DNA from: Gammaproteobacteria bacterium
GTDB lineage: Bacteria > Pseudomonadota > Gammaproteobacteria > S012-40
DNA length: 42,996 nt
Assembly: GCA_919902765.1 (NCBI GenBank)
Contig: CAKKRP010000051.1
Location: 1 to 42,996, forward strand
Reading direction: 5' to 3'
Under the pieces are notes generated by a model that ran no database searches, had not been told where the DNA came from, and saw nothing but the letters and a program-made list of their open reading frames with translations. Shown one piece after another: positions 14,882 to 31,214 of the stretch. How positions within the stretch are numbered: the first letter of the stretch is position 1; each line of letters begins with the position of its first letter. Both the position numbers and the translations under genes were made by a program.

Positions 14882-15619
14882 ATGCCAGAAATCAATCATT
14901 GCGATCTTGCGGGATTATTGGCGGCAGAATCTCTCAAGGACATCGAAGAAAAAGCGTCTCATTTAGTAAATGCACTAGGCTATGATGTTTTCGTAGCGGG
15001 TGTGCAGCGTGCTGGACGAATTCATGTTGTGAGTACTTACTCGCAGACCTGGCGGGCAATCTATGACGAACAAAATTTAATGGACAAAGATCCCACCGTC
15101 CTACACGCACGCCGTTCTACCCTGCCTTTGGTTTGGCACCCCGAACTTTTTCTACAAAAAGACGCGGCGTCGTTGTTAGAGCAGTCGCGCTGCTATGGAA
15201 TTTCCAGTGGACTCTCCATACCCGTACATGGCTCTAACGGTAGCGCTGCAATGACCAGCTTTGCCTCGGGCAGGGAATTTGGTGATGAACAGAAGCGTCA
15301 TGTGCAAGAAAATTTACCTGCCTCTATGTTACTTTCGACGTATCTATTTGAGGCTATCCAGCGCGTCGGTTCAACAATCACAGGTGAAACCGGTGCCGAG
15401 GCGTCGGCAGGTGAAACCGAAATATATTTAACTCCAAAAGAAACTGAATGTCTAAAATGGTCTGCAGCGGGTAAAAGTTCTTGGGAAATCGGTACAATCA
15501 TGTCATGTACAGAACGCACAATTAATTTTCATTTTGGGAATATTATAAAAAAATTAGGCGTTTCCAACCGGCGCATGGCCGTCGCGAAGGCCATCGCTAC
15601 AAAGTTAGTCAGCATCTAA
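14882..15619 (+). CDS. luxR: LuxR-family acyl-homoserine-lactone-responsive transcription factor
   Basis: The 245-residue regulator has an N-terminal autoinducer-binding domain and a C-terminal LuxR helix-turn-helix. The invariant ligand-pocket residues known from TraR occur at matching positions: Trp57, Tyr61, Asp70, Pro71 and Trp85, with a glycine near 110. In the DNA-binding domain the conserved Glu187, Leu191 and Gly197 lie in LTPKETECLKWSAAGKSS. All nine signature positions are thus met, so it should bind an AHL. It is convergent with a luxI gene and is the likely reader of the lux boxes at 16460 and 28786. A stop codon lies in frame 6 nt before ATG 14882. The purine run GAAGG directly abuts the ATG, so translation initiation may be weak. 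Confidence 0.93.
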   Translation: MPEINHCDLAGLLAAESLKDIEEKASHLVNALGYDVFVAGVQRAGRIHVVSTYSQTWRAIYDEQNLMDKDPTVLHARRSTLPLVWHPELFLQKDAASLLEQSRCYGISSGLSIPVHGSNGSAAMTSFASGREFGDEQKRHVQENLPASMLLSTYLFEAIQRVGSTITGETGAEASAGETEIYLTPKETECLKWSAAGKSSWEIGTIMSCTERTINFHFGNIIKKLGVSNRRMAVAKAIATKLVSI

Positions 15620-15715: not shown

Positions 15716-16375
15716 TCACCCATGCATGATAGCGGCGGTGTTTAAGCGTGAATTTCGACCAAATTCTGCTTGGTTAAGTTCGATCCGGGTCTGCGCGGCC
15801 AAAAATAGGGCCGCATGTGTCACGTCGTCTATTTCTATGCTCAGCGCAACTGCACGCTCTACTCCAATTTGCCGCAGTTTACCTAAACGGGCGACGCTAA
15901 CGCCCAAACGGCGCAACATTCTTTCCAGTGCCACATTAGTTACCGTAACGTAGCGACGAATATTGTTCTGTACTGCGAACGTGTATGCCGCCTGCATCAT
16001 CAAAAAAGGAACCATGCTGGTATATCCGGCAACATGTTCTCTGCTGTTGGATTCGGTAGCAAAACGAGATAGCTCCCAGATGTCATTTGATCCGGGCGCG
16101 CAGCTTCCATCCAATAATTCAGGAAAGGTATCACGCAACATGTTGGGTCCCGTGGTTGGCAACATACGCCAGGAGCCAATGACGTTTTTCCCGCCGTCAC
16201 GTACCAATAAATAGACTGGGTTTAATAAATCATAGGAGTCGAGTTCCTGCTCATTTTCGCCGCATACTTCCCAGTTAAGTCGCTGGCGAAATACACGGTA
16301 ACGCAGGTGATGCATGTTTTGTAAATCTTCTTGAGCCAGCCCGTCATATTCGCGATGTGCAATGATTACGTTCAT
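15716..16375 (-). CDS. luxI: LuxI-family acyl-homoserine-lactone synthase
   Basis: It makes an N-acyl-L-homoserine lactone from S-adenosylmethionine and an acyl-ACP. The 219-residue protein carries every classical invariant residue at its canonical number: Arg25, Phe29, Trp35, Asp46, Asp49, Arg70, Phe84, Glu101 and Arg104. A threonine in the VTVTN strand (about 144) sits where LasI/EsaI-type enzymes favour 3-oxo acyl chains, but the actual chain cannot be predicted. The start ATG 16375 has a perfect GGAGG site 8 nt upstream. A lux box and a -10-like hexamer upstream suggest positive autoinduction. The gene lies directly behind the biosynthetic operon on the same strand, so read-through from that operon could also feed it. 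It converges with luxR. Confidence 0.96.
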   Translation of the reverse strand: MNVIIAHREYDGLAQEDLQNMHHLRYRVFRQRLNWEVCGENEQELDSYDLLNPVYLLVRDGGKNVIGSWRMLPTTGPNMLRDTFPELLDGSCAPGSNDIWELSRFATESNSREHVAGYTSMVPFLMMQAAYTFAVQNNIRRYVTVTNVALERMLRRLGVSVARLGKLRQIGVERAVALSIEIDDVTHAALFLAAQTRIELNQAEFGRNSRLNTAAIMHG

Positions 16376-16430: not shown

Positions 16431-16475
16431 ATGTTACTCATAATGGCCGTCGGGCCATACTGTCAGATCTGTCAG
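16431..16475 (-). promoter_or_regulatory. lux box and promoter of luxI
   Basis: CTGTCAGATCTGTCAG at 16460-16475 fits the CT-N12-AG lux-box pattern and differs by one base from the box at 28786. On the minus strand a -10-like TAACAT lies at 16436-16431. The spacing between box edge and -10 equals that at the operon promoter, which puts the box centre about 42-43 bp before the expected transcription start, the classical activator position. The box overlaps the stop codon of the preceding phosphopantetheinyl transferase gene. Confidence 0.8.
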
Positions 16476-17341
16476 GACAGGATATCTATCCCGCTGACGG
16501 TAAGTGGTATATTCACGCCGGAAGGGCGTATCACTTCAATTCTCGCTTGCGGTCGGGCGGAGCACATCACCGTCGCGAAATTTGGCCAGCTTTTTAGATA
16601 ATGCAACGAATGCCCACCTAATGATTTTCGTTTGCCTGATACCAATTCTATGCTGAGCGCAAATTTAGAGAAAAGCGGTAACAATTGTTCCCAACCGTCT
16701 CCAATACCGATGCCTAACATTTTGGCGAAGGCCTCCCTTTCACTCCACGCCAACGCAAATACCTGACTGCGCATTCGTGCGTCCATGTTATGATATTGAA
16801 CGATCGCGCCGGGGCCTAATATGCGTTCCGCCAATTCATCGTATGATCGCGAGCGTATTTTTTCAATATCTATGCCTATCGTAGTATCCTGTGCAATCGC
16901 GATGACTGCGTATCCATGAGAGTGGGACAGGCTGAATTCCACTCCACCACTATTAACAAGTATCGGTTTTCCCCGCGATCCATATTCAAATACGAGTTTG
17001 GCGGGGTCTTGGTGGGCGTATTCTGCGAGTACGTATCGCAGCGCGCTGCGCGTTTGTCCCCATTTGGCGCCTGCAATTAGATTGCTAATGCGAGCGAGCC
17101 GAATCTTTTCATCGTGATCCAGTAAAGTATCTTTTAATCCTTCAAATGAAGACAACACATTTGGAGATAACAGCCAAACATGGGCATTGTCGTTTAAAAG
17201 GCAAGGGACTCTGCCCACAATCGCGCAATCGCTACGTTCGGAAAAATTCATACATGTTATGCCTTTTTGTAATGCCGAACTATTCATGATTTCATATCCA
17301 ATAGTTGCATCCGCTTGCGGTCTAGAAAAACCATCGCGCAT
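16472..17341 (-). CDS. Sfp/AcpT-type 4'-phosphopantetheinyl transferase
   Basis: It transfers 4'-phosphopantetheine from coenzyme A to a carrier-protein serine, converting apo-ACP to holo-ACP. Motifs are RGKP near 123-126, FSLSHS (136-141), the Mg-binding GIDIE (156-160, with Asp158 and Glu160) and WSEREAFAKMLGIGIG (199-214, catalytic Glu203). The obvious partner is the operon's own ACP at 27399. ATG 17341 overlaps the end of the outer-membrane protein gene by 20 bp and has AGGGG 9 nt upstream. Internal ATGs at residues 19 and 31 would remove an atypical N-terminal extension. The product is 289 residues from the first ATG. Its stop codon lies inside the luxI lux box. It is the last gene of the biosynthetic operon. 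Confidence 0.9.
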   Translation of the reverse strand: MRDGFSRPQADATIGYEIMNSSALQKGITCMNFSERSDCAIVGRVPCLLNDNAHVWLLSPNVLSSFEGLKDTLLDHDEKIRLARISNLIAGAKWGQTRSALRYVLAEYAHQDPAKLVFEYGSRGKPILVNSGGVEFSLSHSHGYAVIAIAQDTTIGIDIEKIRSRSYDELAERILGPGAIVQYHNMDARMRSQVFALAWSEREAFAKMLGIGIGDGWEQLLPLFSKFALSIELVSGKRKSLGGHSLHYLKSWPNFATVMCSARPQARIEVIRPSGVNIPLTVSGIDILS

Positions 17342-18683
17342 TGAACTGAACCCCTACGCGTTCCGGTGATGCCCCGTATTGGCTGTATTTGTCGCCAAAA
17401 CGCAACCATGTCTCCACCCAATATTCCCACGTCGTAGCCACATGTTGTGTCCAACGCGCATTCAAGATGCCACTGCCGTCGCGCGTAGCCATAAGGGAAG
17501 GTTGAATATCAATATCATGCACTACTGACATACTCATTCTTAAAAAAATGTGCGTGCCGTGCGCGATCCGTAGTGATTCCATGTCGTATCCCAGATTAAT
17601 TCCGCGCGCCGATTGGTTGGTTAAATTGTCGTGAAACTTCACGACGTTTTTCCATATCTGAAATTGATCTGAATTCATCCCCCTGTTATCACGCCACAAT
17701 TCCATGACCCACGTCGTGTTTGCCTCCGTCGTAAACGTCGCACCTGCCAGCCCTCGGGCGCGAATTTGGCCGTCGTGCGCCAACCAAGGTTGGACGGGGC
17801 TCTGGTATATATAAACATCTGCTGCGCCGAGTTGATCGCCTCTATTCAGATAGACGTTTTTATGTACGGGATAGGGATTGCCACGGTTCGCAAATCCTGC
17901 GACATAAAATGACCATGCCGCCGTTGGCACATAACTTAGCGCGACGCCCCCACCGGGATTCCCGGCCTCTATATATTGAAGAACGGCTGTGGCGGTTAAT
18001 TGATCAATACTTTTACGTCCGGTGGCGACCCATTGACGAAATCCGCGATTGAATCCCGGGTTAGTTCCACCGTATTCATATGAGTAGGAAGAAATAGTGT
18101 CATCCGAATAAATAAGGCGATACGCGGACAGCGCGTTCGCATAGGTTATATTAACCATCGGGAACCCTACGAATTTACCGGCACGATCTTCAAAATCACT
18201 TCCACGTATGCCATCTTCTAAGATGTCAATCGCGTGAAAAGATTGCCCGTCATCTAACGTCAGGTTGAGTCGCCCGATCGTAAAGGATGTTTGATCCGAA
18301 AAAATATATTTCCAAGACACTTGCGGGATATCCGCCGCAAATTTATTGGCCTCGTCTGCGGTGTTTTGCCGCTTCGTGGGAATATATTTTCTTTCAGCCG
18401 TTAGACGCGTGCGTAGCCATAGAGAGCTGTAACGCATATCGATAGCCCCTGCCAATTCCGCTGTCTGTACGGGCACGCCCGCGCCATTGTCAGCGTTGAG
18501 TGCATGGTTGATCTCGCGTTGCGCGAATTGACCATATACGAACCCTGAAAATAATGGAGCCACGGGCGATTCTACGTCTTGCATTTCTTCGGCACCAGCG
18601 GTGTGGGCAATCGTCAGCGAGACACAGATAATGACTGCTGCGCTCATCTTGTTCAGGTCGTAAACGCGGCAATTCACCGCCAT
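17322..18683 (-). CDS. Outer-membrane beta-barrel protein of the lipid-export module
   Basis: The 453-residue product has a Sec signal peptide (hydrophobic AAVIICVSLTIAHTAGAEE). It then has alternating amphipathic strands rich in Tyr, Trp and Phe and ends in ARWFF, a C-terminal aromatic typical of BAM substrates. Segments such as TIGRLNLTLDDGQSFH and GGGVALSYVPTAAWSFYVAGFANRG look like barrel strands and turns. No plug, TonB box or POTRA domain is evident. It lies in an overlapping chain with LolA-like and ABC exporter genes (10-bp overlap upstream, 20-bp downstream). This suggests it is the outer-membrane terminus of the same transport route or the receptor for the exported molecule. Family not recognised. 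Confidence 0.72.
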   Translation of the reverse strand: MAVNCRVYDLNKMSAAVIICVSLTIAHTAGAEEMQDVESPVAPLFSGFVYGQFAQREINHALNADNGAGVPVQTAELAGAIDMRYSSLWLRTRLTAERKYIPTKRQNTADEANKFAADIPQVSWKYIFSDQTSFTIGRLNLTLDDGQSFHAIDILEDGIRGSDFEDRAGKFVGFPMVNITYANALSAYRLIYSDDTISSYSYEYGGTNPGFNRGFRQWVATGRKSIDQLTATAVLQYIEAGNPGGGVALSYVPTAAWSFYVAGFANRGNPYPVHKNVYLNRGDQLGAADVYIYQSPVQPWLAHDGQIRARGLAGATFTTEANTTWVMELWRDNRGMNSDQFQIWKNVVKFHDNLTNQSARGINLGYDMESLRIAHGTHIFLRMSMSVVHDIDIQPSLMATRDGSGILNARWTQHVATTWEYWVETWLRFGDKYSQYGASPERVGVQFNARWFF

Positions 18684-19432
18684 TCTCCCAACGACTCTAG
18701 CGCGTATAATTGTTTGCTGAGTGCCTTTGGAACTGTCTGTTCAAGTACCATCTCAGTGCGATTGTCGGGCCGAATGAGGTCTTTGAACACCATACGTTTG
18801 ATACCCAATCGATCGTTAATTGTCACCGGTTTATCGAATGTCACCGATTTGAAACTTTTGCCGCTTTTCAAGAAAAAGGTTGCTTCCAACGGCCGTGCAT
18901 CGACGCGTGATACCGCCAGTTGGATGTGGGGATAAACCGCCATATCGGATTTCGCAGTGAGTTCCAATAACCACGCGGCTTCACCCGCCAACTCGATTTC
19001 GGGATGCGCGCTGTACTCCGCAGTGTAGTCATCCTGCCAGCGCATGCGGCCGATATCGCCGACCGATGCCTCGCCCAATAGACGCTGCATCGGTGTAATC
19101 CGCACGGTACGCGTACTGCGCGGAAGTTTTATCCATAATCCTTCGTTAGTCATCAACATGTGTTGGCCAGCATCCGCGCCTTCCATAACGCGAATCAACG
19201 ATTTATCCGAGCCTTGGACGGCAACCTTAAAATGACTTTCACGTTCAGATTTATCACCGTGAAACTGCACCAGGCGGACATCCATAATGGCGGCGGAATA
19301 TAACTGACGAAAATCATCTGCGCGTTTAACCAATGTCTGTGCGTCAGGTGGTGCAGCATGCACCGTACTTATTGCGAACGCCGTGATCACTAAAGCACTG
19401 CAGATTCGCTTTGGATTAGGCAATGTGCGCAT
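18674..19432 (-). CDS. LolA-like periplasmic lipid/lipoprotein-carrier protein
   Basis: The 252-residue protein has a signal peptide (ALVITAFAISTVHAAPP). The mature domain looks like the 'outer membrane lipoprotein-sorting protein' group (COG2834, LolA/TP0789-like). It forms an open beta barrel that can hold an acyl chain. Supporting segments are VKRADDFRQLYSAAIMDVRLVQF, then GLWIKLPRSTRTVRITPMQRLLGEASVGDI and VDARPLEATFFLKSGKSFKSVTF. It should ferry a hydrophobic cargo from the adjacent LolCDE/MacB-like ABC transporter across the periplasm. LolA-like proteins also occur in aryl polyene clusters. GGAG lies 8 nt before ATG 19432. The gene overlaps the downstream barrel gene by 10 bp. Confidence 0.82.
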   Translation of the reverse strand: MRTLPNPKRICSALVITAFAISTVHAAPPDAQTLVKRADDFRQLYSAAIMDVRLVQFHGDKSERESHFKVAVQGSDKSLIRVMEGADAGQHMLMTNEGLWIKLPRSTRTVRITPMQRLLGEASVGDIGRMRWQDDYTAEYSAHPEIELAGEAAWLLELTAKSDMAVYPHIQLAVSRVDARPLEATFFLKSGKSFKSVTFDKPVTINDRLGIKRMVFKDLIRPDNRTEMVLEQTVPKALSKQLYALESLGEWR

Positions 19433-19449
19433 ATCAAAATCTCCAAAAG

Positions 19450-20676
19450 TTAGTTGTGATTCAACTGTTCAAGGATAGTCATACGTCTTGAAGATATCAG
19501 TGAAAGCGCTGCGGCAAGTACACCAACAATGACCATTCCCAAAAGCGTCAATCCATAGGCCGTAGGTTCTATAAATATCAATAGCGGGTAGGAGGTGGTG
19601 CGCCCGGGCGGTGGCGGCATTTCAATTCCGGAAAAATTGATGGCCAATGCCAAAACGATTGCGAGTAATAGTCCTGAAATGCCCCCAATCATGCCCACAA
19701 TGCCGCCTTCCAGGAGAAAGTTTTGGCGAATACGCAGCGCTGGAATACCGAAGGCACGCAACGTTCCTTGTTCCCTTATGCGTTCAAACAGGCTCATCAG
19801 CATCGCGTTGGATACCGACAACAACACTACGATGAGAATAATTGCGCCAAGTACGCCGAAAATATTGCTGTATAAGGTGACCACTTGTTGATAAAACGGT
19901 GCCAGGTCTATCCAACGTTTTATCTCCAAGTCAGTCAGCCGCGCGTGCAGGCCTTGCGCAACGGCGTCTGTACGCGCGGTGTCATTGAGCACCACAACGA
20001 CGCGCGATATGCGCTGCGTATCCAATAAACTTTGTGAAGTGGCCAGCGGCATCATGATCGCACGCCGGTCTAATTCGGGAATTCCGGTGCGATATATGCC
20101 AGATACGATAAGATCAATGGCATTTAGCACACCTTTTTCCGTGGTTGCTAGCACGGTCACGCGGTCGCCGGCTTTGACACCCAGTGCCCGGGCCAAATCA
20201 ACCGCGATTATGACTTTGTTTTGATCGGCTTCACTGCTGACTGGCAGGCTATCGCCATCTACTATGGCGGCAAACACACCGGAGAGGCGAGTTTCCTGTT
20301 CCGGTTCTACACCGCTTCCAACAACCGCCAGTGTACGATCACCTGCGGCGATGAGTCCCTCGAATAAAACGCGTTGCATACTAAAGCGCACGCCAGGAAG
20401 GGCGGCGGCGTTCGTCATCGCGGCGCTCGCTTGTTGCTGGCTCAATCCGTTGTCCATGGGTGTTTTTTCGAAGCCGGCAAACTGCCCTTTTGCACCGATT
20501 TGAATGTGACCCAGTTGCCCCGCAATCGTTGCTTCACGTAGACCGTGAAAAGAGGCACTCACAAAACCTGTGGCAGATAAGATCGCCGCCGTGCCCGCTG
20601 AGAAAATTAGAACCGAAAGCAGGGTGCGACGCTTATTACGCAACACATTGCGATAGGCAAACGCTAACCATTTCAT
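19450..20676 (-). CDS. FtsX/LolC/MacB-type ABC transporter permease
   Basis: The 408-residue inner-membrane protein has the MacB/LolC topology. One N-terminal helix (RTLLSVLIFSAGTAAILSATG) is followed by a large periplasmic core of about 220 residues. Three helices then carry the FtsX domain (VVLLSVSNAMLMSLFERIREQGTLRAFGI is the cytoplasmic coupling segment). This family uses ATP to push lipoproteins, lipids or peptides out of the inner-membrane outer leaflet. It overlaps its ATPase gene by 4 bp, so the two are translationally coupled. Only one permease gene is present, implying a homodimer as in MacB rather than a LolC/LolE heterodimer. Confidence 0.9.
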   Translation of the reverse strand: MKWLAFAYRNVLRNKRRTLLSVLIFSAGTAAILSATGFVSASFHGLREATIAGQLGHIQIGAKGQFAGFEKTPMDNGLSQQQASAAMTNAAALPGVRFSMQRVLFEGLIAAGDRTLAVVGSGVEPEQETRLSGVFAAIVDGDSLPVSSEADQNKVIIAVDLARALGVKAGDRVTVLATTEKGVLNAIDLIVSGIYRTGIPELDRRAIMMPLATSQSLLDTQRISRVVVVLNDTARTDAVAQGLHARLTDLEIKRWIDLAPFYQQVVTLYSNIFGVLGAIILIVVLLSVSNAMLMSLFERIREQGTLRAFGIPALRIRQNFLLEGGIVGMIGGISGLLLAIVLALAINFSGIEMPPPPGRTTSYPLLIFIEPTAYGLTLLGMVIVGVLAAALSLISSRRMTILEQLNHN

Positions 20677-21374
20677 GAATACAAAACTCCGTCGCTCAAT
20701 GTATATACCATGCGCGCACGTTTGATGACGCGCGGATCGTGTGTAGCTACCACAAAAGTGGTGCCGAGATCGTCCGTAAGCTTTACCATGAGATCGATCA
20801 AATCCTCGGTAGTGGTACCGTCAAGATTTGCGGTAGGTTCGTCCGCCAACACCAATAGCGGCTTGCGCACCAATGCGCGCGCGACTGCGACGCGTTGTTG
20901 TTGCCCGCCGGACAATTGGTTAGGGCGGTTATTTACTCGTTCCGCCAAGCCCACGGCATGGAGGACTTCTAATGCACGCTGCCTACGTTCACGCGCGGAG
21001 ATAGGTGAGGGATACAATGGCAGCTCGACGTTTTCTACAGCGGATAACACCGGTACTAGATTAAAATTCTGAAAAATAAATCCAAGATGTTCACGCCGTA
21101 ATTTTTCGAGCTCACGCTCATCGTTCAAGGCCACCGCGTTGCCAGCGAGCGTTATTTCACCCGCTGCGGGTGGATCCAACAGACCGAGTACATTTAACAG
21201 TGAACTTTTACCGCTCCCTGACGGGCCGCAGATAGCGATAAAATCTCCGGCTGCAACGTCGATATTTACGTTATTGAGCGCCTGTACCCGTGTGTCGCCG
21301 CGTTGATGGGTTTTATATAAACCGCGACCAGATATCGCTGTTGAAGTCGCTCCGTTCATTGATAGCGCGTCCAT
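20673..21374 (-). CDS. LolD/MacB-type ABC transporter ATP-binding protein
   Basis: The 233-residue ATPase shows Walker A GPSGSGKSS (50-58), the Q-loop region FIFQNFNLVPVLSAVENV, signature LSGGQQQRVAVARAL, Walker B LLVLADEPTANLD and the switch His in VVATHDPR. These place it in the LolD/MacB/FtsE subfamily that partners with FtsX-type permeases, and it overlaps that permease gene. The first ATG (21374) overlaps the preceding gene by 19 bp, and Met6 is an alternative start. All catalytic motifs are intact. Confidence 0.93.
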   Translation of the reverse strand: MDALSMNGATSTAISGRGLYKTHQRGDTRVQALNNVNIDVAAGDFIAICGPSGSGKSSLLNVLGLLDPPAAGEITLAGNAVALNDERELEKLRREHLGFIFQNFNLVPVLSAVENVELPLYPSPISARERRQRALEVLHAVGLAERVNNRPNQLSGGQQQRVAVARALVRKPLLVLADEPTANLDGTTTEDLIDLMVKLTDDLGTTFVVATHDPRVIKRARMVYTLSDGVLYS

Positions 21375-21976
21375 ATTGTGTTGGCTGTATCGGCATTCGC
21401 AAGCCGGGCCTTTTGTAGATACGTTTGGGAATTTGACGTGTCGTTCTCACGCGCCGTCAGCACTGCCAGCCAGGCGTACGCGCTCGCTTGGTGTGCCGGA
21501 CTGATGCTGGAAAATAAAGGATGATTGATCACTGCTTTAAAATCCGCTCGGGCGGTGGATCCGCGACCAAACAACTTTGGGATGCGGGCACTGGTCGTGC
21601 CGCGTACCATGCGCACCTCGATTTCCATGCGTGTACTGGCACTCTGCCTCTCCGCTACAACTGCCGCGACCCCATCATCCATCAAGTCAATCCCTTCCTT
21701 CAGGGAGCTAAGCTTACGCCACGGCAAAATGGATTCTCGCGCAATCATTGCCGCCAACGACCCACGGTACGTCATGGCCCGGCCATCCCGTGGGTGCGCC
21801 TCTGAATATTCCGACGCGAGATCAAAAGCGTGCTCTATGGTGTCATAGTCCCCTAAACGTTGGGCACTGTCGTAGGCAGCGGTAATGTTTTCCCAGGACG
21901 GATTACCGCTGCTGTTTGCCATCATACCGGCACCGAAAAATATTATTGCAGTGAAACCAGCGTATAAAAATTTCAT
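21356..21976 (-). CDS. Hypothetical exported helical-repeat (TPR-like) protein
   Basis: The 206-residue product has an N-terminal hydrophobic segment (MKFLYAGFTAIIFFGAGMMANS), either a signal peptide or an anchor. The remainder is mostly helical, with TPR-like spacing (WENITAAYDSAQRLGDYDTIEHAFDLASEYSEAHPRD...AYAWLAVLTARENDTSNSQTYLQKARLA). It overlaps the thioesterase gene by 4 bp and the ABC ATPase gene by 19 bp, firmly linking it to the export module. TPR-like periplasmic proteins often act as scaffolds, so a role in assembling the transporter is an inference. No enzymatic residue pattern was seen. Confidence 0.65.
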   Translation of the reverse strand: MKFLYAGFTAIIFFGAGMMANSSGNPSWENITAAYDSAQRLGDYDTIEHAFDLASEYSEAHPRDGRAMTYRGSLAAMIARESILPWRKLSSLKEGIDLMDDGVAAVVAERQSASTRMEIEVRMVRGTTSARIPKLFGRGSTARADFKAVINHPLFSSISPAHQASAYAWLAVLTARENDTSNSQTYLQKARLANADTANTIWTRYQ

Positions 21977-22443
21977 GTGCGTTCTCCTACTGTAGTGTGA
22001 ATTTTGCTGAAAGATTCAGTGCGGCCTCGCGCGCCAATCTGCTGGGATTTGCGCGATAGACTTCTAAGCAACTCATCCGGTAAGCGTGAAATCTGCTTGC
22101 GCCGGGCGGATACCGCGACCACATCCGCGTTTACCTTCGCAACGATATCTTGGCCGCGCACGATATCGGTACGCCAGATGCTGCGCGCGGCGCTCACGGA
22201 TTCCAATACCGTGTGTGCGATGAGTTCATCCTCCAATCGTGCCGGAGTTCGAAAAGTCGCTGTCATTTTATGCACCACCAAGAGCGTATCATGGTCATGG
22301 GCGATCGTATCGAAGCTGTACCCCTCGCCTATCATCCATTGCAAACGCGAGCGTTCGGCCAGCTCGATATAACGGCCGTGATACATGACACCACCGGCAT
22401 CGGTATCGGCGTAAGCCACTGTCTGGCGGACGATGCCATACAT
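21973..22443 (-). CDS. Hotdog-fold acyl-CoA/acyl-ACP thioesterase (4HBT/YbgC type)
   Basis: The 156-residue protein has the 4HBT thioesterase signature YADTDAGGVMYHGRYIELAER, with the catalytic aspartate most likely Asp15 and the following HGRY pattern. The family hydrolyses acyl thioesters. In this operon it probably releases the finished chain from the ACP or edits stalled intermediates. ApeK has an equivalent place in aryl polyene clusters. The start codon shares one base with the stop of the double-ketosynthase gene, and its end overlaps the next gene by 4 bp. The basic C-terminal tail (about 130-156) is extra to the core fold. Confidence 0.85.
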   Translation of the reverse strand: MYGIVRQTVAYADTDAGGVMYHGRYIELAERSRLQWMIGEGYSFDTIAHDHDTLLVVHKMTATFRTPARLEDELIAHTVLESVSAARSIWRTDIVRGQDIVAKVNADVVAVSARRKQISRLPDELLRSLSRKSQQIGARGRTESFSKIHTTVGERT

Positions 22444-24833
22444 TAATGAACCCCCTCGGCATTGGACACTATCACTGCGCTAAATTCGCCGCCGGCGCTG
22501 GTATGTAGCACTAAAATATGGCGCGGGTTCACGATGTTGCTGGGTTTTGTCTCCTGCGCCTGGGGAGGCTCGGAATGGCGGGCAAGGATCTCCGCAGCTA
22601 ACAATATATGCATCGGAAATAACGCAGAGGGTGCCATACCGGTCGCAGACGCGGCACTCACACGCGGTGGAACAGCGCGGCCAAACAACGCTTCAAGCGC
22701 GCTTGCCTCTGCCAACAATAGATTGCGTGGTCCAGTGCCCGGCAAAACTACGGCATCGATTTCTTTCGCAGTAATCTTTGCCGCTGCGAGTGCTTGGTTT
22801 GCGGCCCGTTGTAGCCCAGTACCGGAAGGATCTACACTGTCCAACAGTCCGTCTTGCGCAAGACCGATACCGCTGATAAGCGCGGCAACGCGTGCGTTGC
22901 GCGCCCTTGCAATGGAAAGACGTTCTAACAGCACTGCACCCGCGCCTTCGCCGGGATTCACGCCGGGCGTTGCCCTAAACGGCATCACCGCATCTGTGGC
23001 CAGCAATCCGATATCTTGTAGTGCACGGATCACCAGCGGGGACAGTTCGTCACCGCCTACACTGAGCGCGCGATCTTGACGACCATCCCTGACCAGCGCG
23101 TGTGCGTACGAAAATGCGGTGACGGCGCCGCAAAAAGTCGTATTAAATCCTTTGATACCAAACTCAATTGAAATTTGGCCGCCCATCGCATTCATCGTGG
23201 TCATCGGGAAATGAATTGCACTGCCAAATTGAAGTCCTTCATCGAAAATGCTGGTCATGAATTTTTCTACACTGCGTTGGGCACCGTGGGTGATACCGCA
23301 GATTAACGCGCAACGATAGGGGTCTGCAGCGATCAATGCCCGCCCACCGGCCGCGACTATCGCTTGTTCCGCCGCTAATGCGCCGGATTTAATCATCGTG
23401 GAACTGCGTGGATTGCACGGTGCCTTGACGCCTTTTAGGACTTTTTCCGCACGCCCTGCATGTACACCCCACTGGTCGTCACGTGGAAGTGGGCCGGGTG
23501 TGTTCCAGAGTCTGTCAAACAATGCTTGTGTCGTTAAACCAAAATCACCTACCGCCCCTCCACCGACTATGGCCACCGCGTCATCAAGCAAACGGTGCGC
23601 CGCCGGGCCGGCCTTGCGCGTAACGACCAGGGAAGAATTGTTACCACCGAAACCATAGTTGTTGCAGAGAAACGCGTTTACGTTATGTTTCTGCGCCTCA
23701 TTCGGGACGTAGTTGAGGGGCGGGCAACCTGCGCGGGGCGCATTGAAATGGCGGGTCGGTGGCACCAGACCTTGCTCCGCGAATAACAGCGTGACAATCA
23801 ATTCGACGACACCGGAGGCACCCAATGTGTGGCCCAAAAAGGATTTCGGAGACGACAGGGGGGTGTGATTGCCGACGACGCGGGCGGTAGCCAGGGATTC
23901 CGGGATATCATTAGCGTCGGTTCCGGTACCATGCGCCGACACGTAATCGATGTCGGAGGCAACCATACCCGCATCGGCCAATGCAAAACGCATGGCGGCT
24001 TCTACACCGCGCCCCTCGGTATCCGTTGCCGTTTCATGGTAGGCGTCGCCTGACAGACCATAGCCCCTGATCCATGCCAGGGGTTGTTTGCTGCGCTGCT
24101 GTGCGGATTCCGTACGTTCCAATATCACCACACCCGCACCTTCACCCAGCGTGATACCAGGGGGCGTGGAAAACGGCGCAGAAGGTGAAGTACTCATCGC
24201 GCGCAATGCATTGAATCCGGCAAGTATGGACGGTGATACCGTGTCCGTACCGATTACGATGACACAATCCACCTCATTGCGGATCAACCAATCAGATGCC
24301 AACCCAACTGCGGTGTTACTGCTTGCGCACGCCGAGGAAATGGTCGATTTTGGGCCTAATGCACCCACTCGTTTCGAAACCACGGAGGCCGTATGATCGG
24401 TCGAAGCGGCCGCGAGCCATGCGGCAGGTGTCTTGCCGTTATTGGCCGCCCTGAGGTGCAGGAAACTCTTTTCAATGTGTTGGATGCCGGAATGTGAGGT
24501 ACCGACAATCACGCCTACGCGTTCAGGCGCGTACCCTGCCGTCGCAAAGGCCGCTTGCGCAAGCGCTTCTTCGGTCGCGGCAATAGCGAACCACGCGCCG
24601 CGATCAAAATGGCTGCGTTCTTTTTCGGTTAGGCCAAAATCCTTGGCTTCCGGGGCAAACTCCGATACCCAATCGCTGGCCAACGCGGTGCCGTCAAAGC
24701 TCTTAACGTGGTCTATCGCATCGCCACCCGCGATAAGTGTTCGCGCCACTGCCTCGCACCCGCGCGCCACCGGCAGGCAAATTCCCATGCCAGTGACACA
24801 CACCCCTTCTGCACTTCTATATTGAGGTAACAT
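22443..24833 (-). CDS. Fused tandem beta-ketoacyl-ACP synthase (active KS plus degenerate, CLF-like KS)
   Basis: The 796-residue protein holds two FabF-type thiolase-fold domains. KS1 (about 10-405) has the full triad: Cys169 in SSACASS, His301 in AHGTGTD, and His335 in FLGHTLGASG, plus Lys330. KS2 (about 418-795) keeps a cysteine (Cys568, TFCGAVTAF) and the GGDE turn, but HGTGT has become PGTGP (698-702) and the second His motif has become ASATGMAPS. KS2 should therefore be unable to decarboxylate malonyl-ACP. An active KS with an inactive mate matches the KS-chain-length-factor heterodimers of type II polyketide and aryl polyene synthases, here joined in one chain. KS2 probably fixes chain length or stabilises the dimer. 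AGGAG lies 9 nt before ATG 24833. The gene abuts fabG-like and thioesterase genes. Confidence 0.9.
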   Translation of the reverse strand: MLPQYRSAEGVCVTGMGICLPVARGCEAVARTLIAGGDAIDHVKSFDGTALASDWVSEFAPEAKDFGLTEKERSHFDRGAWFAIAATEEALAQAAFATAGYAPERVGVIVGTSHSGIQHIEKSFLHLRAANNGKTPAAWLAAASTDHTASVVSKRVGALGPKSTISSACASSNTAVGLASDWLIRNEVDCVIVIGTDTVSPSILAGFNALRAMSTSPSAPFSTPPGITLGEGAGVVILERTESAQQRSKQPLAWIRGYGLSGDAYHETATDTEGRGVEAAMRFALADAGMVASDIDYVSAHGTGTDANDIPESLATARVVGNHTPLSSPKSFLGHTLGASGVVELIVTLLFAEQGLVPPTRHFNAPRAGCPPLNYVPNEAQKHNVNAFLCNNYGFGGNNSSLVVTRKAGPAAHRLLDDAVAIVGGGAVGDFGLTTQALFDRLWNTPGPLPRDDQWGVHAGRAEKVLKGVKAPCNPRSSTMIKSGALAAEQAIVAAGGRALIAADPYRCALICGITHGAQRSVEKFMTSIFDEGLQFGSAIHFPMTTMNAMGGQISIEFGIKGFNTTFCGAVTAFSYAHALVRDGRQDRALSVGGDELSPLVIRALQDIGLLATDAVMPFRATPGVNPGEGAGAVLLERLSIARARNARVAALISGIGLAQDGLLDSVDPSGTGLQRAANQALAAAKITAKEIDAVVLPGTGPRNLLLAEASALEALFGRAVPPRVSAASATGMAPSALFPMHILLAAEILARHSEPPQAQETKPSNIVNPRHILVLHTSAGGEFSAVIVSNAEGVH

Positions 24834-24850: not shown

Positions 24851-25663
24851 TTACCGTTTGAATCCGCCGTCTATGCGCAATGTGCTGCCCTGTAAATAGC
24901 CGGGAGACAATAGAAACACCACTGCTGACGCCACTTCTGCGACTTCGCCCATCCGTTTTAATGCAGTCGCTGCCAAAATATGGTCATACATTTCAGGCTC
25001 TAGGACGTTCACCATTTCGGTACGTATGAATCCTGGCGCGATTGCATTGACCCGTAGACCTTGTTCTCCGTAGCGCCTGCCTAGCCACTGCGTAAAACCC
25101 ACCAATGCACCCTTGCTTGTCGCGTAAGACACCTGCCCCTCTTTCCCGGAAATTCCCGCTAATGATGCTACGACCACGACCGAGGGATCGGGTTGGCGCA
25201 ACAACGCCGGAAGCGCGGCCAGCGTTAAGCGTGCCGTTCCGCCGAAATTGGCGTTTAACACCCGTTGCCAGCGCGCTGCGTCCATCGTTAAAAACGCGCC
25301 GTCATCGGTCAGGCCGGCGTTATTGACGAGCGCGTCTAAACGGCCGAAATGCGTCTCCACTTGAGCGGGTAGGTTGCGCACACTTTCTTCACTCGCCAAG
25401 TCCACGGCAAATGCTTGAACGCGTTGTTCAGAATCCATAATTCCTTCGCGCAAGGTTTGTAAAAATAAATCGGCGACGCTGGCCTCGCTACGATAAGTAA
25501 AGCCTACATTCCATCCGTCACTCACCAATTTTGTTACGATCGCACGCCCGATTCCACGTGTGCCGCCGGTAACGAGTACCGTTTTACGCAGTACCGGCAC
25601 CGCAGATGCGCCAACGCCACAATCGGCAGGTTGCAGCGTAATATTCGCTTGTTTGCTTGTCAT
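24851..25663 (-). CDS. 3-oxoacyl-ACP reductase (FabG-like SDR)
   Basis: It reduces beta-ketoacyl-ACP with NADPH. The classical SDR motifs are complete: cofactor loop VTGGTRGIGRA, VNNAG, catalytic Ser in SLAGISGKEG, the Tyr-x3-Lys pair in SYATSKGALVG, and PGFIRTEM. ATG 25663 (MTSKQANITL) is chosen because AAAGGA lies about 8 nt upstream and it follows the previous stop by 17 bp. A longer frame from 25705 would overlap that gene without a clear ribosome-binding site. From this start the protein is 270 residues, with a 26-residue N-terminal extension beyond the usual FabG start. It acts in the elongation cycle with the KS, ACP and dehydratase of the operon. Confidence 0.92.
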   Translation of the reverse strand: MTSKQANITLQPADCGVGASAVPVLRKTVLVTGGTRGIGRAIVTKLVSDGWNVGFTYRSEASVADLFLQTLREGIMDSEQRVQAFAVDLASEESVRNLPAQVETHFGRLDALVNNAGLTDDGAFLTMDAARWQRVLNANFGGTARLTLAALPALLRQPDPSVVVVASLAGISGKEGQVSYATSKGALVGFTQWLGRRYGEQGLRVNAIAPGFIRTEMVNVLEPEMYDHILAATALKRMGEVAEVASAVVFLLSPGYLQGSTLRIDGGFKR

Positions 25664-25679
25664 GAGTAGTCCTTTTGTC

Positions 25680-26357
25680 CTAGACGTTGTTTTCGGGATA
25701 GCCAATACCTACCGGCAATACCATACCCGCCAGAGGAATACCCTTGAGCTCGATAAGCGCGCGTAGAAATTTCGCAACATCAATGCTTTTTTGCGGCCTA
25801 AATTTGATGGCAAAGGCCTTCAAGTTTGTACGCGCATCTTTCCACAACGCTGCATCCAATTGCTCCGCAAGCGGCTGGACGTGCAAAGCATTCAACTTCA
25901 CGCCAAAACAAAATACTTCTTTGGCTAAGCTCTTAATGGCACCCACAAGCGCCCGCGAACGCATAGGTTGGGCGGCGACAGGGAGGTAATATTGCATGCT
26001 ATCTTCTTGTAGAAGCACCCATACCTGCCCGTCATCACGACGTGACAACATCTGAACACTGGCCTTTATCTCGCCCAAAGTACGTGCAAGATCATGTTGA
26101 ATCTTGCCAATATCCTCAGGTGTCTCTGCCACCTCAGCGCCGTCCTGCAGGCCGAACACAATGCGCTCGAAAGGCCCGTAGGCAGAATCCCATTTTAATA
26201 ATTCGTTTGGAATGTCGTTTCCTACGATATCAATTCCCGGCTCAGACTTACGAGCGTGGGTGGTAACCGAATGACCCGCTTCCGCAAGTTCCTTTGAAAG
26301 CGCTAAACCTAGCGAATGATCAGCATCTACAATAAGAACCCGTTGTTTTTTGTCCAT
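25680..26357 (-). CDS. Degenerate SDR-family protein, probable non-catalytic partner of the ketoreductase
   Basis: The 225-residue protein looks like a Rossmann-fold short-chain dehydrogenase. An N-terminal beta-strand/helix (QRVLIVDADHSLGLALSKELAEAGHSV) stands where the glycine-rich cofactor loop would be, and a later helix reads RSRALVGAIKSLAKEV. The TGxxxGxG loop is altered to DADHSLG, and the catalytic Tyr of YxxxK is absent from the aligned helix. NADPH reduction therefore seems unlikely. Being next to an intact FabG-like gene, it may form a heteromer with it. A regulatory or scaffolding role is possible. GAGGT lies about 7 nt before ATG 26357. Assignment as SDR rests on fold-like pattern only. 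Confidence 0.6.
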   Translation of the reverse strand: MDKKQRVLIVDADHSLGLALSKELAEAGHSVTTHARKSEPGIDIVGNDIPNELLKWDSAYGPFERIVFGLQDGAEVAETPEDIGKIQHDLARTLGEIKASVQMLSRRDDGQVWVLLQEDSMQYYLPVAAQPMRSRALVGAIKSLAKEVFCFGVKLNALHVQPLAEQLDAALWKDARTNLKAFAIKFRPQKSIDVAKFLRALIELKGIPLAGMVLPVGIGYPENNV

Positions 26358-26366
26358 AACTATACC

Positions 26367-27384
26367 TCAATGTAAGAGTGCGACGCCGTAATTCCACGAC
26401 GCCGTTTCTATGCCCAACACGCCGACATAACTCTCGCCGGGATGGATATTTCCACGCTCTACGGCCCTTGCCATAGCGCGAAAAATCGCCGGCGCAGGAC
26501 AATTTCCGATTTCGTGTCCAACATAGAAGCGTTTACTATCCATGCTGTCATTTCCGGCGACGCGAATCATGGAGCGATTTACCTGCGGTACGATCAAGAC
26601 ATCGATTTTATCCGCGTTCCCGTCTACCGGCCCGAGCATGTCTTTCATGGCGCGTGCCGCCACGTCCGGCAAAACGCTGCGTATGCTGCGATGGTTGTGT
26701 ATCGCGGAACCGGACGCATCCAACGAAAATCCGACGTCGCGCAAATGAAAACGCGAGGCGATATCCGCGTGTAGTACGCGCAAACCCTTTGTTTTAGGAT
26801 TCGCCTGTACGACTATCGCTCCGCCGCCATCCGCGAATGCCAGACCGTTCATCAAATTTTCACTTGATAATTTTGCATTGGCCTTTAATAAAGGTGCGAA
26901 ATACGCCGGAGAAATGCAATCCGCCGCAGTAACTAACACCGTTTTGGCGCGCCCGCTTTCAATAAGAGTACAAGCGGTGGTTAGCGCCTGCATCGCTACC
27001 GTGCAACCCCCCCCGCAAGTCCAATGTCCGAATCTCGCCTAGACCGAGTTTTCGTTGTATTTGATAAGTGAGTGGTGGCAGCCGGTCATCCGGAGTGGAA
27101 GAGGATGTAATCAGAAAATCCACTTCGCCTACCTCTACGCCTGCCTGTTTCAAAGCACGTTGCGCCGCACGCACGGACATCTCGGTGGTGCCTAAACCAG
27201 GTTCGCGGCGCTCGCCGGTGGCCGGATCAATCACGTAGTGACGTGACTCAACGCCGAAATAATTCATAAGCGTAGTGACTGGCGTCTGCAACGCGACCTC
27301 TAATTCCGCGTTAGTCACCGGCGGCCCCGGGGAATAGTCCGCGACACCGGTGATCGCGATTTCCTTGCTGTCTCTGAATGTCAC
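26367..27384 (-). CDS. KAS III-like 3-oxoacyl-ACP synthase, reading frame shifted at a G8 tract
   Basis: The gene starts at GTG 27384 (AGGAG 8 nt upstream) and reads MTFRDSKEIAITGV to TLDLRGG. A run of eight G on the coding strand (C8 at 27007-27014) throws it out of frame. With seven G it reads on as RGGCTVAMQALTTA and continues to the stop at 26367, about 338 residues, the normal KAS III length. The catalytic cysteine is the first residue after the tract. Downstream, the usual HQAN motif is PQVN, so the catalytic His is lost, while the GN of the Asn motif (IGNCPAPA) is kept. It may prime the pathway, act as an acyltransferase, or be a second chain modifier. The frameshift is a sequencing error, a real mutation or a slippage switch. 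The sequence cannot tell which. Confidence 0.8.
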
Positions 27385-27398
27385 GAATTTCGCTCCTA

Positions 27399-27704
27399 TT
27401 ATGCGACCTTGGTCAGCGCGGTTTCCGCCAAATTATTTAAAATAAAGGCGGCCAACGTACGCACGCTATGGCATGCGGATTCGATCAGATCTTTATCGAT
27501 TTCCTTGATTTGAAAGCCATACGTCTTCTCCGAACCGACGAGCAAATCAAGCGCTTCGACGGAATCCAGGCCCAACCCGGCGCTATCCAATAGCAGGTGG
27601 TCGTCACCGATATCTTCATAGGTCAACCCCGTGTCTTCCAGTTCCAGGCGCACTAATAGCAAATTACGCTTGATATGCTCGATTACTTCGCTCTCACTCT
27701 TCAT
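27399..27704 (-). CDS. Acyl carrier protein
   Basis: A small acidic carrier protein with the phosphopantetheine attachment motif GLDSVEALDLL. The modified serine is residue 48 from the chosen start. ATG 27704 is preferred to the ATG at 27710 because AGGAG sits 8 nt before it but only 2 nt before the other. At about 101 residues it is longer than typical FabA-pathway ACPs (about 78), with an extended helix I and a C-terminal tail. It carries the growing chain among the operon's KS, KR, DH and TE, and is presumably activated by the transferase at 16472. It is the only ACP in the window. Confidence 0.92.
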   Translation of the reverse strand: MKSESEVIEHIKRNLLLVRLELEDTGLTYEDIGDDHLLLDSAGLGLDSVEALDLLVGSEKTYGFQIKEIDKDLIESACHSVRTLAAFILNNLAETALTKVA

Positions 27705-27740
27705 GATCATCTCTCCTAGTTAAGTTGACGAAAGTCGCCG

Positions 27741-28280
27741 TTATACATCTATGCGCAGAACATCGCTGTTGTTTATGAACGATGCCACGGCGGCCTGCAC
27801 AATCGGTTGTTGCTCTACGTTAGCAATTGCTTGATATAAATTAATTTGAGCGCGTGCGCATCGCACGCCCTCATGATAGGCGGCGCACTTAAAGCTATGT
27901 ATGGCCCCTTTGTAATCTCCCACCGTCAATTCACCTGTGCCGCGCACGATTTTGCAATCAAAAACGATTGTTTGGTGAGGCCTTACCGTCTTATTAAACT
28001 TCGCGGTGTCCACACCGACCAAATAGCCAGGGATAATTTTTCCTGCCTGTTTATTCAAAAACAATCTGGCGGCTTGCGCCATACACTCAAGCAATACCAC
28101 GCCCGGCACTATTGGATCTCCCGGAAAATGGCCTGCAAAATACGGCTCATCCGGTCGAAAGGTATGTGTAATCCACGCGCGCCCTTGCGCCTCATCTACT
28201 ACTGCATCGTCAGCAAATAAGAATGGCGCGCGATGCGGCAAATAACTAAGTACATCAATTTTCTGTTGAACGCCCGACAT
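27741..28280 (-). CDS. FabZ-like 3-hydroxyacyl-ACP dehydratase
   Basis: The 179-residue hotdog protein has the FabZ/FabA signatures LPHRAPFLFADD and YFAGHFPGDPIVPGVVLLECMAQA. The catalytic His51 and Glu65 are both present. It should dehydrate 3-hydroxyacyl-ACP to the trans-2-enoyl form. No enoyl reductase gene was found in the operon, so double bonds may be kept, giving a polyene. Alternatively, the housekeeping reductase acts. The protein is about 30 residues longer than FabZ at the C-terminus. It follows a shorter hotdog gene lacking the histidine, and the two could form a heterodimer as reported for ApeI/ApeP. Confidence 0.92.
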   Translation of the reverse strand: MSGVQQKIDVLSYLPHRAPFLFADDAVVDEAQGRAWITHTFRPDEPYFAGHFPGDPIVPGVVLLECMAQAARLFLNKQAGKIIPGYLVGVDTAKFNKTVRPHQTIVFDCKIVRGTGELTVGDYKGAIHSFKCAAYHEGVRCARAQINLYQAIANVEQQPIVQAAVASFINNSDVLRIDV

Positions 28281-28326: not shown

Positions 28327-28695
28327 TTATTGGCCGTTGAATATGGTTACCGTAAAACAAAAAATGGGTGCCGCTGCTGTTTTTAATTTTACATACAATA
28401 TTAAACTGGACGGACTAGGTACCACATTCGGCAGATGCGCGTTTTCCACCCCAACCAAGTAGCCGCTGTTGTCTCCCTCGGTTTCTTCAGATGTAAGCGC
28501 GCGAAGCAGTAACCCGCTGGATTGTGCCATCGCCTCTACCAACAGGTAACCAGGAAGCCCCTGAGGATACGCATAACGATTTTGACCTTCCAAAATGGTC
28601 AAGCCGAAAGCTCCGGACTGCGTTTCACGGTTTACGGAAAATACGTCATCTATGTAGCGGAACGGCGGTTTTTGTCGTAACGAATCAATCTGCAT
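28327..28695 (-). CDS. Hotdog-fold dehydratase-like protein lacking the catalytic histidine
   Basis: The 122-residue product, first gene of the operon, aligns by eye with FabZ. KPPFRYIDDVF corresponds to the HRxPFLxxD start, and QGLPGYLLVEAMAQSS to the PxVPGVLxxEAMAQ helix, retaining Glu54. The GHFPG histidine position is Arg40 (NRYAYP), so the usual dyad is incomplete. It also stops soon after the third strand and is short for a full hotdog. It is probably a structural or substrate-shaping partner for the intact dehydratase encoded next (46-bp gap). The start at 28695 lies about 55 bp from the predicted transcription start. Confidence 0.72.
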   Translation of the reverse strand: MQIDSLRQKPPFRYIDDVFSVNRETQSGAFGLTILEGQNRYAYPQGLPGYLLVEAMAQSSGLLLRALTSEETEGDNSGYLVGVENAHLPNVVPSPSSLILYVKLKTAAAPIFCFTVTIFNGQ

Positions 28696-28756: not shown

Positions 28757-28801
28757 ATACTATGCATCGGGAGGGAAAAATGTAACTGTCAGATCTGACA
28801 G
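28757..28801 (-). promoter_or_regulatory. lux box and promoter of the biosynthetic operon
   Basis: CTGTCAGATCTGACAG (28786-28801) is a perfect 16-bp palindrome of the CT-N12-AG lux-box class. Reading leftward, a -35-like TTACAT abuts it at 28785-28780. A 17-bp spacer follows, then TAGTAT as -10 at 28762-28757. The centre of the box is thus about -42 to -43 relative to a start near 28750, the classical place for LuxR activation. The first gene starts at 28695. Confidence 0.85.
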
Positions 28802-29068: not shown

Positions 29069-30289
29069 TTATTTATGATCGTGCAATTTGGTCCTGCGAA
29101 ATGCGACCAATATCAGTACATCGTACACAATCTTCAACACGCCACACGCCACCAACGGTGCCGCCAACCATCCGGTAGCCAGCAATGCACCACCCAGCGT
29201 AGGGCTAGCCGCCGCCGCCAGGCTGCGCGGCACCGCAGTGAAACTCGCCGCCGCCGCGCGTTCGGCGGGCGTCACCGCCGCCATCACAAAGGCCGTGCGT
29301 GTCGGTACATCCATTTGCGACAACGCGCTACGCACCAATAAAAATATTAAGGCCACCGGCAGGGTCGGTGAAAAAGCCGCTAAAATCAGGCAAATATTGG
29401 CCGGTATGTGGGTGTAGACCATGGTGTTCAATAAACCTATGCGTTTGGCGAGCCACGGCGCTAACAACTGTGATAACGCAGTTAATAATCCAGCCCAAAA
29501 GAAAAATACGCCTGCCATCGCCAACGATAACTCAAAACGCTGAAACAACCACAAGGCTAATAATGCGTTGACCATCAGTCCGCCCGCAAAGGCGTCCAGT
29601 GAAAATAATGCCGCGAGCTTGAATACGATACTACGCGAGGGACCCAAGGGCGTGGGTGAGGTGTGGTGTGGCAGCGGTGTTATGGGAATTTTGCGATATA
29701 GCCACCAAATAATGCCGCCGACGACGCCATAAAAAACAAACATGCCACGCAAGGCCCATAGTGCGTCGATGGCGTAGGTGTGCGTGATCCATTGCGGCGC
29801 GGCGGCCGCCAGCGCGCCGAATGCCGCGCACAATGTGCCTAATAAACTATAGCGCGCGTATAGGGCCGTGCGCGCATTGCCGCTAGCGCCGGCTGCGAGA
29901 CGTGCGTGCTCCAATGGTAAAAATACGCTTACGTCGCCCGCGCTGGGGTTTAGCGTGCCGATAAAGGCGATTATAAATAACGGCCAGAATTCCGTTTGAA
30001 AAGCGAATAATAATCCGGTGGAAAACATCAATACCGCCGCGCCGCGCAACAAACGTTGCTGCGAAAAGCGGTGGCCCCATATACCCACTGCAATAGTGAG
30101 CAGCGCAGACCCCAATAGCGTAGAACTCGCGAGAAAACCCACTTCCCAGGTGCCCAGGCCCAGCGCCAACAAGTAGGCGGGGAGTAATACGGCGACATAT
30201 CCATCGACGAAGGCGCGCAGACTGCGGCCGATTAACAGGCGTAGCGCGACGGGTTCTGTGTGCGGGGGAAGTAGCCATTTTTCTAGCAT
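29069..30289 (-). CDS. Major facilitator superfamily transporter
   Basis: The 406-residue membrane protein has about 12 hydrophobic helices and an MFS-like loop between helices 2 and 3 (GHRFSQQRLLRGAAV, a weak form of G-x3-D-R-x-G-R-R). It also has a central cytoplasmic loop near 200-220 and a second half opening with FKLAALFSLDAFAGGLMV. Substrate is not predictable; a drug-exporter-like or sugar-exporter-like role is possible. It lies upstream of the quorum-regulated operon on the same strand, but 370 bp containing the lux promoter separates them. It is therefore probably not part of that unit. The stop at 29069 and the ATG at 30289 give a normal length. Confidence 0.85.
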   Translation of the reverse strand: MLEKWLLPPHTEPVALRLLIGRSLRAFVDGYVAVLLPAYLLALGLGTWEVGFLASSTLLGSALLTIAVGIWGHRFSQQRLLRGAAVLMFSTGLLFAFQTEFWPLFIIAFIGTLNPSAGDVSVFLPLEHARLAAGASGNARTALYARYSLLGTLCAAFGALAAAAPQWITHTYAIDALWALRGMFVFYGVVGGIIWWLYRKIPITPLPHHTSPTPLGPSRSIVFKLAALFSLDAFAGGLMVNALLALWLFQRFELSLAMAGVFFFWAGLLTALSQLLAPWLAKRIGLLNTMVYTHIPANICLILAAFSPTLPVALIFLLVRSALSQMDVPTRTAFVMAAVTPAERAAAASFTAVPRSLAAAASPTLGGALLATGWLAAPLVACGVLKIVYDVLILVAFRRTKLHDHK

Positions 30290-30424: not shown

Positions 30425-31207
30425 CTATTTAAATATCATCCGCATCATCTTGCCATGTGTCTTTTCGGCGAGCGTTTGATATTCCCATAAGGTATCCGGG
30501 TTGTCGCGTCCTAAAGGTAAGGTGAAAACGGGCGCTGGAATGCTGAAATAATGGATTTCGTCCGTTGCGGGCTCATCGCCGATCAACAAATAGGCACCCG
30601 GCGCCGGCGCGTTTTGTGCGGCGCGTTTAAAGGCGTCGCCTATGGTTTCGTTATAACCGGTAAACGGCGCGCCTTCCATCAGGTGGTCGAACATTTCACC
30701 CATGGTGCCGGAATAGGTCGCGGCATTGCCGTCGGAAAACCAGGTGATGGCGGTCAATTTTTTGCCGGAACGCGTGACGATTAAACGTAAAATGGGAATT
30801 AAAAAATTCGATATTCCGTGCATAGACCCGCTGGCATCGACGATCAAGTGTAAATCTTTGCCGGGAAGGTCGTGTAGGCCTTGCACGAACAAATCGAAGT
30901 CTTTGCGTCCCTTGCTGCCTTCCAGACCCGCGTACCCTAATACTTGATCGGCTTGAGTCTTGGGGTCGCTGGCGGCGAGATGTTCCAAGTCGCTTTTTAA
31001 ACGCGCCTCTTTCTTTTCTTCGTTTGCCAGTTGCGCGCGCAATTCTTGTATTTCGGCCTTCAATTTCGGCACTTGCTCGGTGGTTGCAAGTTTGTAGGTC
31101 ATCAGTGTAATAATGAAAATAAACAAAAACATCGTCAACATCTGCATGGCGATGTCGGCCAAGATTTGGTAGATGCCGTCGCGCGATGCCGTTTTTCTAC
31201 CCCGCAT
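30425..31207 (-). CDS. MotB/ExbD-like membrane protein fused to a von Willebrand factor A domain
   Basis: The 260-residue protein has a short basic N-terminus, then one helix with the pattern ILADIAMQMLTMFLFIFIITL. Asp18 sits at the position of the proton-binding aspartate of MotB/ExbD/TolR. A charged coiled coil (about 45-80) follows, then a vWA domain whose MIDAS motif DASGSM (124-129) is intact. Peptidoglycan-binding OmpA or ExbD C-terminal domains are absent. Lying 7 bp after a MotA/ExbB-like gene, it likely forms the stator-type proton channel's plug subunit. The vWA domain would replace the usual peptidoglycan or TonB contact and bind a partner protein in the periplasm through a metal ion. 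The function of such fusions is not known to me. Confidence 0.78.
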   Translation of the reverse strand: MRGRKTASRDGIYQILADIAMQMLTMFLFIFIITLMTYKLATTEQVPKLKAEIQELRAQLANEEKKEARLKSDLEHLAASDPKTQADQVLGYAGLEGSKGRKDFDLFVQGLHDLPGKDLHLIVDASGSMHGISNFLIPILRLIVTRSGKKLTAITWFSDGNAATYSGTMGEMFDHLMEGAPFTGYNETIGDAFKRAAQNAPAPGAYLLIGDEPATDEIHYFSIPAPVFTLPLGRDNPDTLWEYQTLAEKTHGKMMRMIFK

Positions 31208-31214
31208 GAGTGTC

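Follow-up and report, generated by a model that had tools for sequence, protein, structure and literature searches.

Does an operon for the biosynthesis of an acyl product also carry the machinery that takes this product to the outer membrane? The question is raised by a locus in the 3.3-Mb genome of an uncultured gammaproteobacterium, analysed here in a window of 42,996 nucleotides, by which we mean the whole stretch of DNA examined. The original prediction proposed a dedicated export route at positions 17322-21976, composed of an ABC ATPase, an FtsX permease, a LolA-like protein, a helical-repeat protein, and a barrel. All five are present (Table 1); on the minus strand, a TPR-like protein is followed by an ABC ATPase, then by an FtsX-type permease, a LolA_like carrier, and finally the barrel. 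The placement of this module between a thioesterase and a phosphopantetheinyl transferase (PPTase) gene, likewise foreseen, is borne out by the gene calls and overlaps, which make a single operon. Overlaps had been put at 4 to 20 bp and are as described: 4 bp between the thioesterase and TPR-like genes, 19 bp between the TPR-like and ATPase genes, 4 bp between the ATPase and permease genes, 10 bp between the LolA_like and barrel genes, and 20 bp between the barrel and PPTase genes. The gap between the permease and LolA_like genes is 17 bp, not the 18 bp first given.

TABLE 1 Features of the operon and the adjoining quorum-sensing genes in the window
Feature	Position	Strand	Evidence
Lux-box-like palindrome CTGTCAGATCTGACAG, upstream of operon	28786..28801		Genome-wide site scan
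FabZ-like dehydratase 2, first gene of operon	28327..28695	-	PF07977
FabZ-like dehydratase 1	27741..28280	-	PF07977, FabZ models
Acyl carrier protein (ACP)	27399..27710	-	NF006617 phosphopantetheine-binding protein, score under cut-off
KASIII (FabH-like), frameshift-split	26367..27384	-	Both halves match FabH models
Degenerate SDR-like protein	25680..26357	-	SDR matches, weak only
FabG-like ketoreductase	24851..25705	-	TIGR01830 4.5e-62, under cut-off
Double ketosynthase (fused), active KS followed by a CLF-like half	22443..24833	-	PF00109/PF02801, two stretches
YbgC/4HBT-type thioesterase	21973..22443	-	PF13279; TIGR02799 under cut-off
Exported TPR-like protein	21356..21976	-	Aligns with TPR-like gene of 21 related loci
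LolD/MacB-type ABC ATPase	20673..21374	-	PF00005 (ABC_tran) 6.5e-33; best NCBIfam match LolD
FtsX-type permease, single gene	19450..20676	-	PF02687; best NCBIfam match LolCE
LolA_like periplasmic carrier	18674..19432	-	PF17131 1e-27
Outer-membrane beta-barrel	17322..18683	-	AlphaFold2 model, about 18 strands; profile match to barrels of related modules
PPTase	16472..17341	-	PF01648
Lux-box-like palindrome CTGTCAGATCTGTCAG, upstream of luxI	16460..16475		Genome-wide site scan
LuxI-type acyl-homoserine lactone synthase	15716..16375	-	PF00765 8.9e-34
LuxR-type regulator	14882..15619	+	PF03472 and PF00196

On the 5' side of the module and on the same strand lie genes for two FabZ-like proteins, an ACP, a KASIII, an SDR-like protein, a FabG-like protein, and a double ketosynthase. 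By alignment, the catalytic Cys and both His of the double ketosynthase are present in its first half and none is aligned in the second, the predicted combination of an active KS with an inactive CLF-like partner that defines a KS-CLF type II synthase. A tract of eight G residues (27007-27014) breaks the KASIII frame in the window's assembly; this may be a sequencing error, as the KASIII of a sister species is an intact frame of 341 amino acids. A consensus scan within the operon found no excess of promoter- or terminator-like sites over shuffled sequences. Farther upstream, beyond a gene of the major facilitator superfamily (MFS), are a MotA/ExbB-like gene and then a gene with no Pfam match (30425-32252), and a GC-richer stretch at the end of the window encodes an 871-amino-acid protein with a spermine-synthase-like domain (39844-42459).

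Both the ATPase (TIGR02211, 224 bits versus a cut-off of 308) and the permease (TIGR02212, 105 bits versus a cut-off of 362) miss the equivalog thresholds for LolD and LolCE, respectively. The family profile of the permease matches the structures of LolF and LolE, and in the LolF alignment the loop at what we take to be the position of the LolA-docking hook looks shorter, with conserved residues of its own. The carrier passes the Pfam gathering score for PF17131 (97.4 bits versus 30), and its model (pLDDT 88) has the fold of the uncharacterised PF17131 LolA_like protein NE2245 (3buu), with a TM of 0.90 by target length and a profile E value of 4.5e-50. Classic LolA, at a TM of about 0.5 by target length, is not its closest fold. 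A Pfam search with the TPR-like protein gave no match. The TPR-like proteins of related loci occupy the equivalent gene position, and PW and G positions are invariant in the alignment with 21 of them; matches of this protein to solved structures, mostly short alignments to designed proteins, were set aside as chance.

The barrel required a different approach. Pfam and a sequence search of solved structures gave no match, and since searching with the sequence itself reached just the sister species and one weak match, comparison of profiles was needed. This relates the window barrel to the barrel family common to the modules (97.5% probability), and the same holds for the barrel of related operons in Enterobacterales (97.1%); a direct profile comparison of the Enterobacterales and window barrels gave no match, the two joining only through the common family. 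The AlphaFold2 model, of intermediate confidence (pLDDT 66), matches OprD/Occ porins and AlgE with Z scores of 20-21 over about 300 residues, and the protein ends in FF. As modelled, the barrel shares a fold with OprD/AlgE-type barrels, from which neither family membership nor function follows.

How does this set compare with known routes? Like the Lol pathway (LolCDE or LolF, LolA, LolB), it pairs a related ABC ATPase and FtsX-type permease with a carrier of LolA fold. However, it scores under the Lol cut-offs, has one permease gene and a barrel instead of LolB, and lies in a biosynthetic operon; a Pfam and NCBIfam scan of the operon genes from FabZ2 to the PPTase found no match to LolB. The module is thus not the Lol pathway proper. 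MacAB-TolC shares a related ATPase and permease domain, whereas the window operon has the LolA_like carrier and the barrel, and the same scan of operon genes found no membrane fusion protein or TolC-type gene. Aryl polyene clusters offer a parallel in setting, since a LolA-like carrier is found there too within an acyl/polyene biosynthetic operon; in these clusters an RND pump, a LolA-like protein, and a LolB-like protein (ApeL/ApeM/ApeN set) have been proposed for a similar job (PMC8253772). Among the operon genes of the window, the scan found no RND/MMPL pump. As originally predicted, then, the ABC/FtsX and barrel set differs from the RND-based aryl polyene route (PMC8253772), and the window module is not an instance of it. 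No paper naming the module came up in a literature search judged by titles, abstracts, and term counts, an absence that is not proof.

Regulation offers a link between export and biosynthesis. The luxI gene comes after the PPTase gene, and luxR faces luxI. A 16-bp palindrome, CTGTCAGATCTGWCAG, precedes both luxI and the first gene of the operon; allowing up to one mismatch, these are exactly the two sites in the whole 3.3-Mb genome, and the count expected from shuffles of the window is 0. The generic pattern CTG-N12-CAG, unlike this longer palindrome, occurs no more often than by chance. In the sister species the palindrome stands at the two matching places, while the bases flanking the operon site differ. 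A predicted synthase, a predicted regulator, and a shared operator-like palindrome are therefore all present, and LuxR would bind both palindromes. The operon and luxI are thus likely to form a two-target LuxR quorum-sensing regulon, as predicted from these sites, and the position of the palindrome, before these two alone, ties the export and biosynthetic genes together in it. The tundrenone cluster of Methylobacter is a further quorum-controlled source of a secondary metabolite (PMC6977074). It resembles the window operon in its quorum control, and tundrenone as the operon's product is a lead only.

The sister species keeps the parts of the operon at 77-95% identity, with 77% for the barrel, 89% for the LolA_like carrier, 94% for the double ketosynthase, and 95% for KASIII. 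It was found by direct search; the search of genomes of the class with the double ketosynthase gave FabF-level matches only. The parts are spread over four contigs, which hold the MFS gene together with the box and the first part of FabZ2 (C573); FabZ2 through the TPR-like gene (C542); the TPR-like gene through the LolA_like gene (C221); and the barrel, PPTase, luxI, and luxR genes (C563). We infer that these join into one operon. The sister genome additionally carries a stand-alone copy of the module.

To what extent does the module belong to biosynthesis? Sets of TPR-like, ABC, FtsX, LolA, and barrel genes are common in Vibrionaceae and present also in other phyla. A census was taken by scanning named genomes with a LolA profile and keeping the best 80 of 149 loci, mostly from Vibrionaceae and counted as loci rather than lineages. 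Sixty-six of the 80 had enough flanking sequence, and among these the ATPase and the permease are found in 66/66, the barrel in 65/66, the TPR-like gene in 60/66, a histidine kinase in 64/66, and a LytTR regulator in 63/66. The latter two follow the module in L007, L008, and most of L060-L139. With window proteins as queries, KAS or PPTase genes were detected near 1 of the 80 best loci. Dozens of loci share this set of genes, which excludes a chance grouping of the five. The module is not confined to biosynthetic settings, and most related copies stand alone.

Related modules nevertheless occur in at least seven other acyl or polyketide gene sets, some of them located through a KAS query, so that they give no measure of frequency. 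In Enterobacter, Rahnella, and one further genome, the module lies among genes for a double KAS, KAS, ACP, FabZ, FabG, a GcvT-like protein, and a malonyltransferase, and a Klebsiella record holds an operon of the same kind. These Enterobacterales operons include KS-CLF genes, have the module in the order ABC, TPR-like, FtsX, LolA, and barrel, and adjoin a two-partner secretion gene pair. The export part is matched on E. coli chromosomes in 375 of 5,426 complete genomes (about 7%); in the one inspected (L218, 7792-24076), a KS-CLF operon with the module sits between pga and tRNA-Ser/ycdU, the annotation ycdU being that of the last gene of the set. A plasmid operon of E. coli (L219, 3137-14333; 2/5,426 genomes) combines KAS, ACP, FabZ, and a FeeM-domain protein with the module. 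Elsewhere the module accompanies a PKS and a PPTase (Paraburkholderia); two KAS, ACP, and AMP-binding genes (Aliiroseovarius); a KS-containing protein and a PPTase (Vibrio Of7-15); AMP-binding (AMP-ligase), AurF, and KASIII genes (Burkholderia arboris); and, judged from its sequence, the end of a type I PKS (G680). We presume that these settings resemble the streptococcal cyl set.

A tree of the permease and carrier was used to relate the two kinds of copy. Biosynthesis-linked copies require six label changes, four of them forced by well-supported branches, although long branches make the number of uptakes a rough guide and B. arboris, itself a long branch, is of unsure placement. A single clade of biosynthesis-linked copies is rejected (AU test, p-AU 5.7e-69). 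As the Vibrio Of7-15 copy nests within the stand-alone group, the tree gives good support to more than one uptake of the module by biosynthetic operons.

Taken with the overlapping genes, conservation in the sister species, and the shared box, recurrence in acyl operons ties the export line to biosynthesis. We consider it somewhat probable that the operon combines synthesis of an acyl product, fatty-acid-like or polyene-like, with a dedicated line for its export, both likely under quorum-sensing control. In this scheme, the thioesterase would free the acyl product of the KS-CLF, which would enter the inner membrane. By a push of the kind described for LolCDE and MacB, a permease dimer and two ATPases would move it out of the periplasmic leaflet and into the cavity of the LolA_like carrier. 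The TPR-like protein may help coupling or gating, and the carrier would shield the product and deliver it to the barrel, which, replacing LolB, would either seat it in the outer membrane or let it out. We infer the cargo, the direction, and the role of the barrel. The dedicated route of the original prediction has the lux box, the sister species, and at least seven other settings in its favour, although the module is not exclusive to biosynthesis. The final step of this route would be insertion of a lipid in the outer membrane or its exit by way of the barrel.

Neighborhood alone does not fix the cargo, because the majority of related modules are stand-alone copies accompanied by a histidine kinase and a LytTR regulator. 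Conserved synteny could also reflect tolerance of the product. The module here might then move the envelope cargo of the stand-alone copies, lipid or lipoprotein, and serve product tolerance or display rather than carriage. The majority held by stand-alone modules fits this, as does the sister genome with one module of each kind, but the repeated placement of the module in unrelated acyl and polyketide operons and the lux-box-like site common to module and biosynthesis make it unlikely. A module found mostly without biosynthetic genes and handling lipoproteins only had been named at the outset as evidence against a dedicated route. Half of this is borne out: the census found mostly stand-alone copies, several biosynthetic settings were located besides, and nothing shows a lipoprotein cargo. 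A Lol-like lipoprotein route, in which a protein carries the acyl product as a modification or the five-gene set sorts a lipoprotein, would accord with the LolD/LolE-like sequences, the LolA fold of the carrier, and the two-partner secretion genes beside the Enterobacterales operon. We regard it as improbable, given ATPase and permease scores well under the Lol cut-offs, a carrier only distantly similar to classic LolA, a scan of the operon genes that gave no LolB-like match, and an operon without acyltransferase. Slightly less credible still is exit of the product passively or through the MFS transporter, with the five genes an efflux or stress system only: the MFS gene (29069-30289), on the same strand just upstream and kept in the sister species, lies upstream of the lux-box-like site and outside the operon, whereas the five export genes overlap biosynthetic ones.

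More broadly, and tentatively, the TPR-like, ABC, FtsX, LolA_like, and barrel proteins may constitute machinery of general use for carrying lipid-like molecules from inner to outer membrane, the barrel replacing LolB. Acyl and polyketide operons would have taken it up several times, and here it would belong to a two-target LuxR regulon. The transport of hydrophobic natural products across the Gram-negative periplasm is poorly known, and the module is a compact, recurring set that ends in a barrel. The related operon on E. coli chromosomes makes the question of export testable in an ordinary genetic host.
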